50,187 nt of DNA from Baaleninema simplex PCC 7105 (GTDB lineage: Bacteria > Cyanobacteriota > Cyanobacteriia > Cyanobacteriales > Geitlerinemataceae), in assembly GCF_000332355.1 (NCBI RefSeq), contig NZ_KB235958.1, positions 1,836,230 through 1,886,416 on the forward strand, in the 5' to 3' direction. Made by a program: the position numbers and the translations under genes. Below the pieces are notes generated by a model. That model made no database searches and was not told where the DNA came from. It saw only the letters and a list, made by a program, of their open reading frames with translations. This document shows positions 35,468-37,772 of the stretch, one piece after another. Numbering within the stretch: position 1 is the first letter of the stretch; every line of letters begins with the position of its first letter.

Positions 35468-35494
35468 AAAAAAACACCCGCTGGATGCGGGTGT
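35468..35494 (-). terminator. Rho-independent terminator after hsp20
   Basis: On the minus strand ACACCCGC, a short loop and GCGGGTGT form an 8-bp perfect stem (35474-35494) followed by seven T (35468-35474 as A on the plus strand). It lies about 95 bases after the hsp20 stop. The remaining 35182-35587 sequence shows no gene. Confidence 0.85.
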
Positions 35495-35587: not shown

Positions 35588-36061
35588 TTAGCCTTCGGTG
35601 GTTTCTGCTTTGATTTGTTTCGGTTCTGGGGTGTCGAGTAAATTCACTTTCACCACGCGATGAACCGCTTCGGGAGCTTTCGGTAACATCAGCGTCAAGA
35701 TACCATCTCGATATTCGGCTTTTACGTCGCTGTTGGTGATGGGTTCGGGTAAGTCGATCGTGCGGCGGAATTTACCGATCGGAAATTCGCTGTAAAAGCG
35801 ATGTTTGTCGTCTTTGGGTTCCCGTTTGCGATATTCACCGGCGATCGAGACTTTGTCGCGGGTGACTTCAATGTCGAGATCGTCGCGATCGATCGCTGGA
35901 ACTAACGCCCGTAATAGAAACGCCTCGGGACGTTCTTCGAGTTCGACGGCGATCGACCAGTTTCGAGAATTGTTTTCTCCAGAAACTTCGTTAAAAACGC
36001 GATTGAGTTGACGTTCGATGCGATCGAGTTCTTCAAAGGGATTGACGGTATAGAATCGCAT
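35588..36061 (-). CDS. Small heat shock protein, Hsp20/alpha-crystallin family
   Basis: 157 residues. Hsp20 binds unfolding proteins without ATP and holds them for refolding. An N-terminal arm with NPFEELDRIERQLNRVF precedes the alpha-crystallin domain (about 40-140), which includes RALVPAIDRDDLDIEV, VSIAGEYR and the RTIDLPEPI strand, closing with YRDGILTLMLPKA (the G-x-L motif). The open frame extends to 36448, but ATG 36061 has a strong Shine-Dalgarno, AGAGGAGG, a few bases ahead and gives the family N-terminus. It is the last gene of a minus-strand run headed by a CIRCE operator and has its own terminator. Confidence 0.93.
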   Translation of the reverse strand: MRFYTVNPFEELDRIERQLNRVFNEVSGENNSRNWSIAVELEERPEAFLLRALVPAIDRDDLDIEVTRDKVSIAGEYRKREPKDDKHRFYSEFPIGKFRRTIDLPEPITNSDVKAEYRDGILTLMLPKAPEAVHRVVKVNLLDTPEPKQIKAETTEG

Positions 36062-36230
36062 AACTGCCTCCTCTAATTTAGGCTGTGTTTCTTTCTCTAT
36101 TAGCTGGTTTTCTGCGGACAGTTTTATTGTGCGATCGCACCGCTCGAAATGAAAATGCAGACAACCGTACTTTACTAGGAAACTTGCCGAAATTCGGTTC
36201 GCCTCACTCGAAATTCGGTTCTCCGAAATC

Positions 36231-36599
36231 TCAACGTCCGTAGGGACAAATCTGACAGGCGCGTGCGGCGGCTTCGGGTGCGATTTCCGTCCGTCGTGCG
36301 TTGAAGCCGGGGCTTCCGTCGTAGTCGATATCGTCGTACAGCACTCCCAACACGCACCGCCGAATCTCGAGGGCTTGTCGTCGAGTCCGAACGCCTTGAC
36401 ACGCCAACGCCGCAGATGACTGACTGACGATGGTGCGCTGGGTTTCAAAGCCCGGATCGCCGTTGTAGTCGATTTCGGTGTACAACAAGCCGTTGAGACA
36501 GCGTCTGACTACGTCTTCGCGGTTTTCGGCGAGGGTGGGAGAGATCGGGGTGAGGGGAATTCCAACAATCGTTAAAAGGACGAGGATGAAGCGTTGCAT
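36231..36599 (-). CDS. Secreted protein with two cysteine-bearing repeats, unknown family
   Basis: 122 residues starting MQRFILVLLTIVGIPLTP, a clear signal peptide cleaved near residue 24 (TLA). The mature part is two copies of a motif of about 37 residues: RCLNGLLYTEIDYNGDPGF then R..IV...SAALACQ, and RCVLGVLYDDIDYDGSPGF then R.EIA...AARACQ. Each repeat has a Cys at both ends, suggesting one disulfide per repeat, and an acidic D-x-D-Y-x-G turn that could bind metal. It lies between two heat-shock-linked genes. I do not recognise the family. Confidence 0.65.
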   Translation of the reverse strand: MQRFILVLLTIVGIPLTPISPTLAENREDVVRRCLNGLLYTEIDYNGDPGFETQRTIVSQSSAALACQGVRTRRQALEIRRCVLGVLYDDIDYDGSPGFNARRTEIAPEAAARACQICPYGR

Positions 36600-36670
36600 G
36601 GGGATCGAACTGGCCTTTGAGACGATTGACGTTTCGATCGCGTCAAAGGTTTCGTTCTGTTTGCGATCGC

Positions 36671-37012
36671 TTAAAACAGCAACTCGAATTCTTGGCGAAG
36701 TCGGTTGTAATTGGCAACTCGTCCGACGACAATACAGTCGTCTTCCGATTTTTGAAAGATCGTTTTCCAATGGCGAACTCGCTCTTCGCGTTCGAGCCAA
36801 AAATTGACGATCGCCCGGACGACTTCGTCCCAATCCCAATCGGGCTTTTCATGGACGAGTTCCATCGATCGCACGAATCCATCTAAGCTACAGTCGTAAC
36901 TTCCGAGATAAGCTCGGCTGCGTTTGGGATTGTTTTCGTGTTCTTGTTGGTGGTTGAAAAAGTTTAAAACCGGGGTGACGGTCACGATTTCAAAATCAAA
37001 GGTGTAGGTCAT
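36671..37012 (-). CDS. Hypothetical protein, 113 residues, first gene after a CIRCE operator
   Basis: The product begins MTYTFDFEIVTVTPVLNFF and continues with charged helices, including PDWDWDEVVRAIVNFWLER and WKTIFQKSEDD. It is soluble, acidic and rich in tryptophan, with no signal peptide or catalytic motif I can name. Start ATG 37012 is preferred; a GTG at 37018 is in frame. It starts 74 bp downstream of a CIRCE element on the same strand, the distance expected for HrcA control, and is followed in the same direction by the repeat protein and hsp20. A stress role is inference from this context. Confidence 0.6.
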   Translation of the reverse strand: MTYTFDFEIVTVTPVLNFFNHQQEHENNPKRSRAYLGSYDCSLDGFVRSMELVHEKPDWDWDEVVRAIVNFWLEREERVRHWKTIFQKSEDDCIVVGRVANYNRLRQEFELLF

Positions 37013-37086
37013 AGCCACGACAAAAACGAGACTGTGGAAACTGCGATCGCCAATCTTTTAAAGGGAGCGATCGAGACCGTTGGGCT

Positions 37087-37113
37087 TTAGCACTTCGAGA
37101 CGGAGAGTGCTAA
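37087..37113 (-). promoter_or_regulatory. CIRCE operator (HrcA binding site)
   Basis: Inverted repeat TTAGCACTT - 9 bases - GAGTGCTAA. The CIRCE consensus is TTAGCACTC-N9-GAGTGCTAA, so 17 of 18 arm bases match and the spacer length is exact. HrcA binds this site and represses chaperone genes until heat stress. The nearest gene it could control reads on the minus strand (start 37012); nothing convincing reads to the right. Confidence 0.85.
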
Positions 37114-37121
37114 CCTCAAAA

Positions 37122-37148
37122 CAAAAAGGGTGCGAGTTGTCCTCACAC
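37122..37148 (-). terminator. Minus-strand hairpin and T-run upstream of the CIRCE
   Basis: On the minus strand GGGTGTGAGG and CTCGCACCC pair around ACAA, followed by TTTTTGTTTT. It would end transcripts arriving from the right, yet the sequence to its right now holds no gene, only about 200 bases and the 417-bp decayed unit. It may mark the former end of a lost gene. Confidence 0.6.
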
Positions 37149-37355
37149 CCCACTTATGGCACAGATTGACGTTTCCAAGCTTACGGGTTCGTTCGTACAC
37201 GGTCTCGAAAATCCAATTTTCGATCGCTTTCTGCCATTGTACTCAGTCTCGCGATACGCAACTGTTTGCGAGCAACAGTTGTAAAAAAAATTTACGATTT
37301 CTAGTCGCTAAAACATAAAAATAAAATAAAAAACGTGGCGTTAACTGCCACGCTA

Positions 37356-37772
37356 AATTGACGCTCTCCCCCCAACCCTAGCGGGTATGGTCGGAGATTC
37401 CTGTTTCACTGGCTCATGCCTAGATAAACGAGCAAGCCCGAATACCCCCGGTCAGAACGCCTTCACAGGCTGTTTGTTTAACGTCCACGATGCGCCCCAC
37501 CGCAGACATAAGCGAGAATCAAATTCTCTTGGCAACACCAACTGGCGATTTTGTGGTTTACCTCCACCACGGGTTTTTCGGGTGTTGCGAACCATACCCT
37601 TAGGATCTTAAAGACCGTTTCCGGTAAGGCAATTTTACCAGTTTGTTCGTTTCGGCGCTATCCCCTTCTCTCGCTATCGCATTGTTCGGGGGATGCACCG
37701 AAACTCACCGCCGCTTCACCACCAACCAAGCCTATTGGCTATGGTTGGAGCGCTGCGACGAATCTTGGTAGG
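37356..37772 (-). mobile_element. 417-bp decayed tnpB tail plus IS200/IS605-type right end, copy 2
   Basis: Inverse orientation to the copy at 3611-4027, same length, about six substitutions, including the same TGA inside the residual tnpB frame. Both copies therefore carry the same decay, so the decayed unit itself was copied, not two intact elements that decayed separately. The right end (GAGCGTCAATT on the minus strand) is at 37356. It sits just beyond the 3' end of the fmdB gene. Confidence 0.6.

Follow-up and report, generated by a model that had tools for sequence, protein, structure and literature searches.

The stretch of DNA analysed here (50,187 nucleotides, called the window below) carries an inverted repeat of the CIRCE type ahead of three genes read in the same direction, namely those for an uncharacterised protein (P1), a secreted-type protein (P3) and the small heat-shock protein Hsp20, which raises the question of which of these genes the operator serves. 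Cyanobacterial CIRCE elements are described for groESL1, groESL1.2 and groEL2 (PMC5381637, PMC8400943, PMC2662882), with the groES start lying inside the CIRCE loop in Synechocystis (PMC2662882). HrcA is described as a negative regulator whose effect heat lifts and which GroEL restores, and deletion of hrcA as also affecting some genes that lack CIRCE (PMC7760821). The hspA gene of Synechocystis has been reported to lie outside HrcA control (PMC2758279). These statements follow the accessible parts of the cited papers. In the literature found, accessible to the same extent, the P1 gene was not named as a CIRCE target, with subscription papers and regulon databases lying outside the search, and the literature search yielded neither expression nor binding data on P1.

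Table 1. Features of the P1 locus, with positions counted from the first nucleotide of the window.
Feature	Position	Strand	Description	Basis
Second terminator-like hairpin upstream of CIRCE	37332-37354	-		Terminator scan
Terminator-like hairpin with T-run	37127-37151	-	Ends just upstream of CIRCE	Terminator scan
CIRCE operator	37087-37113	-	TTAGCACTC-N9-AAGTGCTAA in the reading direction of P1	1 mismatch; recurs before P1 homologues
P1	36671-37012	-	Uncharacterised protein, 113 aa, gene of the CIRCE operator	No Pfam/NCBIfam match; homologues; AlphaFold2 model
P3	36231-36599	-	Secreted-type protein, 122 aa, two similar halves	Signal-like N-terminus and halves by eye
Second core copy	36208-36220	-	AACCGAATTTCGA, within the palindromic element region 36163-36220	1 mismatch
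Conserved hsp20 upstream element	36163-36199	-	AACCGAATTTCGG...TACGGTT	Core in 10/10 closest f1 hsp20 genes
hsp20	35588-36061	-	Small heat-shock protein, 157 aa	PF00011, E 6e-19, 68.4 bits against a cut-off of 20.8
Intrinsic-terminator-like hairpin with T-run	35474-35494	-	After hsp20	Terminator scan

The preliminary description of this locus had read the repeat as matching CIRCE at 17 of 18 arm positions, and a scan with shuffled sequences confirmed this. The repeat that marks genes of the HrcA/CIRCE regulon, TTAGCACTC-N9-GAGTGCTAA, is present ahead of P1, 74 nt from its ATG as calculated from the coordinates, and is the sole match with three or fewer mismatches in the window, none being found in 100 shuffles. 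The genes behind it were also as described earlier: a 113-residue Trp-rich protein (four Trp), a secreted-type protein of two similar halves, and an hsp20 followed by a strong terminator-like hairpin (Table 1). Two features beyond that description are the terminator-like hairpin at 37127-37151 and the conserved element ahead of hsp20. A scan of all 8 contigs of the genome (6.15 Mb) returned three CIRCE sites with three or fewer mismatches, and the reversed pattern, used as a control, gave one match per strand at the same threshold; over 80 genomes the reversed pattern gave no match with one mismatch or fewer. The other two CIRCE sites of the window's genome are both perfect, one standing before groES-groEL and one before groEL2, so that outside these two loci P1 alone has such a site ahead of it in this genome. 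For the same reason, relocation of the operator from groE by a rearrangement was ruled out, groESL and groEL2 each having retained a perfect site of its own. HrcA is encoded once in the genome (PF01628, E 5e-52). The P1 gene is thus like the groESL and groEL2 genes of cyanobacteria in having the same operator just upstream in a genome with the repressor family, and in being headed by one of the few such sites that the genome contains. It differs in being an uncharacterised, non-chaperonin target, the targets in the accessible parts of the literature being groE genes (PMC5381637, PMC8400943, PMC2662882, PMC2758279). A promoter scan gave no sigma-70-like match at the CIRCE of the window, and in the related locus L006 it gave a single one, overlapping the P1 start codon.

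With a profile built from four members, P1 homologues were found in 168 of the 388 genomes of the class. The census of their upstream regions drew on the best 150 of the 173 matches in these 168 genomes, the 23 weakest not being taken and G323, with its gene at the start of a contig, being left out. Fourteen named loci and the loci of the window's own family (f1) were added, giving 157 loci after removal of repeats, defined by an identical protein start and upstream end (one such pair, L035 and L038, came from two genomes). L049 had just 59 bp upstream and was dropped, which left 156 of the 157 loci to be scored by their best CIRCE match within 500 bp upstream, three or fewer mismatches being counted as positive. 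By this measure 46 of the 156 distinct loci carried the operator, with none, one, two and three mismatches in 6, 23, 9 and 8 loci, respectively (29 with at most one), many of the loci belonging to close relatives, so that the counts are not independent. The remaining loci showed four (3 loci), five (6), six (7) and seven to nine (94) mismatches. None of 959 control tiles of 500 bp from elsewhere in the same loci reached three mismatches, the best having four, and the reversed motif gave no match at this threshold over the 156 upstream regions. A chance origin of the window's site is ruled out by these tiles and the 100 shuffles. Operator and start codon were 50 to 321 nt apart across the P1 loci. 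Within f1, P1 was found in 5 of 14 genomes, all five with CIRCE upstream; in one of them (G010) the gene is interrupted by an insertion with a TnpB/OrfB-like gene according to weak Pfam matches (L009, 1501-3094), and a remnant of the P1 end lies further downstream in L189. It should also be noted that the sites before P1 in L104, L110, L111, L129, L157 and L158 (families f30 and f38) have three mismatches, several of them reading TTAGCANTC-N9-...TGCTTA, and may be either degenerate CIRCE copies or another operator.

The conservation of CIRCE together with P1 in relatives, which had been proposed as a check, is therefore seen in 46 of 156 loci and thus in part of the family only. The case that would have spoken against it, CIRCE before groE in relatives and a recent rearrangement here, was looked for and not encountered: the ORFs at the 157 P1 loci gave no groES or groEL hit, in flanks that mostly measured 1.5-4 kb and less where a contig ended, with cut ORFs uncounted. 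Within the same flanks hsp20 was present at the window's own locus only. Among the 14 largest neighbour clusters no common functional partner of P1 was apparent. From its recurrence, P1 appears to be a conserved third CIRCE target, and one that is not a chaperonin.

The hsp20 gene has an upstream region of a different kind. No CIRCE-like site with up to five mismatches in the direction of the gene was found in the stretches of up to 300 bp taken upstream of the window's hsp20 and 16 homologues. Instead, the 169 nt between P3 and hsp20 contain the element listed in Table 1, the core of which (AACCGAAWTTCGG) stands 133-153 nt before the ATG in the ten closest hsp20 genes of f1, the window's included, and is followed by TACGGTT in nine of the ten (L179 differs). 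A search of the window's genome with the whole element gave one match, the copy ahead of this hsp20. The core was confined, among 170 loci, to the two that cover the window's hsp20, and it was absent from seven more distant hsp20 homologues (L181-L187). The gene resembles the hspA/Hsp17 genes of other cyanobacteria as a member of the Hsp20/alpha-crystallin family, and differs from them in this family-specific element; its counterparts in relatives have no CIRCE ahead. The K-box of cyanobacterial groESL1 is a TTCGG/CCGAA-type inverted repeat near a heat-shock promoter. The hsp20 element is also an inverted repeat of the TTCGG/CCGAA type, with a spacing and sequence different from those of the K-box motif. 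The palindromic element is a candidate operator of a heat-shock regulator. A simple RNA thermometer at the start region of hsp20 was rejected (fold z-score 0.16).

The preliminary description had taken P1, P3 and hsp20 as one unit headed by CIRCE, which in its full form would be an operon under HrcA on a single transcript. The three genes do share a strand, with gaps of 71 and 169 nt, no same-strand terminator-like site in the gaps and a strong one after hsp20, so that read-through from P1 to hsp20 is possible in the window's genome; in G012, moreover, P1 and P3 are co-oriented, with P3 233 nt behind P1. The arrangement in relatives and the upstream element common to hsp20 and its nine orthologues nevertheless make a three-gene operon improbable. 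The four other f1 genomes that have P1 carry hsp20 elsewhere, at about 0.8 Mb (G012), 1.4 Mb (G010) and 3.7 Mb (G006) from P1 by contig coordinates where both are on the same contig, and on a different contig in G009. Together with its own conserved element, this suggests that hsp20 is probably a separate unit with its own promoter and not primarily CIRCE-controlled, and the report that Synechocystis hspA is not HrcA-regulated, in the accessible part of PMC2758279, points the same way. The placing of unknown proteins in the HrcA regulon is accordingly supported for P1, the operator of which recurs in distant cyanobacteria while the neighbours change, and is not supported for the three-gene unit.

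P3 follows P1 at a distance of between 0.07 and about 2 kb in f1 (the window, L006, L047, L189 and L190), and a convergent gene for a protein of about 340 aa starts 39-43 nt after P1 in G006 and G009, which rules out a common P1-P3 transcript in those two genomes. P3 homologues were found in 9 of the 388 genomes, with further ones in G012 and G009 outside the matches of that sample, and no P1 was present within flanks of about 1.5 kb or less in six P3 loci outside f1 (L191-L196). P3 thus adjoins P1 only within f1, and it is possibly co-transcribed with P1 in the window's genome. Neither Pfam nor NCBIfam gave a match to P3 over the cut-off; a Pfam match to gpD (E 0.003) lay below it and was not believed, and a PHROGs match to phrog_1386 (E 5e-4 over 30 residues) led nowhere.

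As a palindrome has no direction, CIRCE could also serve a product on its other side, either a gene transcribed divergently or a small RNA, so far unannotated, between the two upstream hairpins, whose T-runs hint at an extra transcript. In the window the upstream neighbours are formamidase and zinc-ribbon genes as against a pyridoxamine-oxidase-like gene in L006, and DNA comparison of CIRCE and the region upstream with the f1 relatives gave matches of at most 22 bases. By alignment, the four f1 relatives (L006-L009) nevertheless have a hairpin-like stretch with a T-run at the place of the hairpin nearest to CIRCE, one missing from the terminator scan of L006; that such a hairpin lies there although the upstream gene is divergently oriented suggests an unannotated small RNA upstream of CIRCE. 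This hairpin reads towards CIRCE, however, so that an upstream transcript would end there and not start. Between the hairpins Rfam had nothing at gathering score, its matches in the window being a tRNA away from CIRCE and a weak match to a CRISPR repeat (37364-37400, E 4.1) below that score; the idea that CIRCE coincides with an RNA element from a known family was accordingly rejected. What stays the same across the 46 CIRCE-positive loci is P1, the ORF upstream being found on one strand or the other and belonging to different sequence clusters, which shows that the operator follows P1 and makes service to another product extremely unlikely.

It could further be asked whether HrcA acts on the repeat at all, or whether this is a relic or serves as a hairpin in the mRNA, as many P1 genes do without it: 110 of the 156 loci lack CIRCE at three or fewer mismatches, including that of Synechocystis salina and all rows of f27 (Leptolyngbya/Nodosilinea-type), and G155 (f5, Nostocales-like; L118, L199) keeps a two-mismatch site with HrcA not detected. 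HrcA is, however, found in the congener G398 with the same two-mismatch site, and in 79 of the 80 genomes with P1 that were tested, whether their P1 has a site or not, these genomes having been chosen by the author. The match scores over the 156 loci are two-peaked, with the 46 positive loci at 0-3 mismatches and most others at 7-8, and five P1 loci have tandem copies, two or three in number. The 52 sites of the P1 loci differ in their nine loop bases but keep their arms, positions G4, C5, T8, A20, C24 and T25 being identical in all 52, a constancy partly due to the selection of sites with three or fewer mismatches. A relic or hairpin of this kind is therefore very unlikely.

The whole of these results is, with high probability, explained by CIRCE placing P1 under HrcA control together with groESL and groEL2, with P3 and hsp20 as lineage-specific neighbours and hsp20 transcribed from its own promoter. 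The sequence, its conservation, the genomic counts and the presence of HrcA are observed, and repression and its release by heat are taken by analogy with the established biology of HrcA. In the unstressed cell HrcA bound to CIRCE would keep P1 as well as groESL and groEL2 repressed; once GroEL is taken up with misfolded proteins, HrcA would become inactive and P1 would be made together with the chaperonins. The cell would in this way be supplied with a small alpha/beta protein, probably cytosolic, delivered with the GroE machine. P3 and hsp20 would lie downstream of P1 by a lineage-specific arrangement, and hsp20 would most likely fire from its own promoter.

As for the product itself, P1 matched no family in Pfam or NCBIfam. 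Among fifteen P1 homologues searched against the same profiles, the only families to appear were ones hit by a single member, the best with E 3e-4 (puhA), cut-offs not being given for these matches. The kind of regulation is a known one and the target family, absent from Pfam and NCBIfam, is not; P1 with its operator is, as far as the searches show, an undescribed third branch of the CIRCE set of cyanobacteria. The AlphaFold2 model from 15 aligned members is a confident, compact alpha/beta structure (mean pLDDT 87.5, pTM 0.78) with the elements E5-14, H15-26, E33-38, H43-52, H61-74, H76-88, E93-101 and H102-112. A fold search against the PDB and a viral library gave nothing at E 0.001 or less or at a Z of 5 (Foldseek best E 0.36, TMq 0.25; VIA-align best Z 3.6). 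A match to an HTH regulator among solved structures searched by sequence (best E 0.004) was dismissed as chance, the best PADLOC match (PbeD, E 0.012) and that in PHROGs (E 0.29) led nowhere, and searches of plasmids and viral contigs gave nothing useful. No signal-like N-terminus was seen by eye, and P1 is for this reason probably cytosolic. The most constant residues among 157 members, each at least 98% conserved, are Phe5, Cys41, Leu43, Asp44, Trp59, Trp72 and Arg98.

Judged from its regulation only, P1 may act as a proteostasis or stress-protection factor beside GroE, and the earlier suggestion of a possible new cytosolic heat-shock factor agrees with that regulation. A more specific reading would make P1, a small alpha/beta protein with the near-invariant Cys41-(Thr/Ser)-Leu-Asp, Trp59, Trp72 and Arg98, the founder of a new cyanobacterial family of chaperonin partners that act on or with GroEL1 and GroEL2, perhaps as client adaptors or folding cofactors. 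This would account for HrcA controlling P1 along with the chaperonins; neither the 14 largest ORF clusters among its neighbours nor the fold searches gave a pointer to a chaperone role, and we consider such a partnership unlikely.

The distribution of the operator was examined on a P1 tree of 156 rows, in which the CIRCE label needs 12 changes as against a mean of 40 on shuffling (0 of 500 shuffles as low), the tree having few columns and several long branches, so that this number is rough; the starred branches alone force four. One clade, with Chlorogloeopsis, Tolypothrix, Goleter and the f5 genomes, is positive in 24 of 24 rows and is judged by its named members to be Nostocales. Spirulina, the SBLK row, the five f1 rows and both rows examined of f9 and of f34 are also positive. 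Those of f27 and f8 are negative, and f30, f6, f17 and g9 are mixed. In g9, the genus of Synechocystis salina LEGE 00031, one of four genomes is positive, with two mismatches, and the lack of a site with three or fewer mismatches in the other three may explain why work on Synechocystis did not reveal control of P1. A third CIRCE target in several distant lineages would be a lead to an overlooked response of cyanobacteria to heat, and perhaps light, stress.

HrcA was present in all 39 CIRCE-negative genomes among the 80 tested, so that absence of the site does not mean loss of HrcA, and P1 must run without such control in many species. Where the P1 site had one mismatch or none (24 tested genomes), the genome held exactly three such sites in 23 cases and two in G062; the 39 genomes without a P1 site held two sites in 30 cases, three in 5 and one in 4 at the same threshold, the genes headed by the remaining sites having been determined in the window's genome only. 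Third CIRCE sites were observed in G328, G133, G314, G037 and G019, although P1 is without CIRCE in these genomes.
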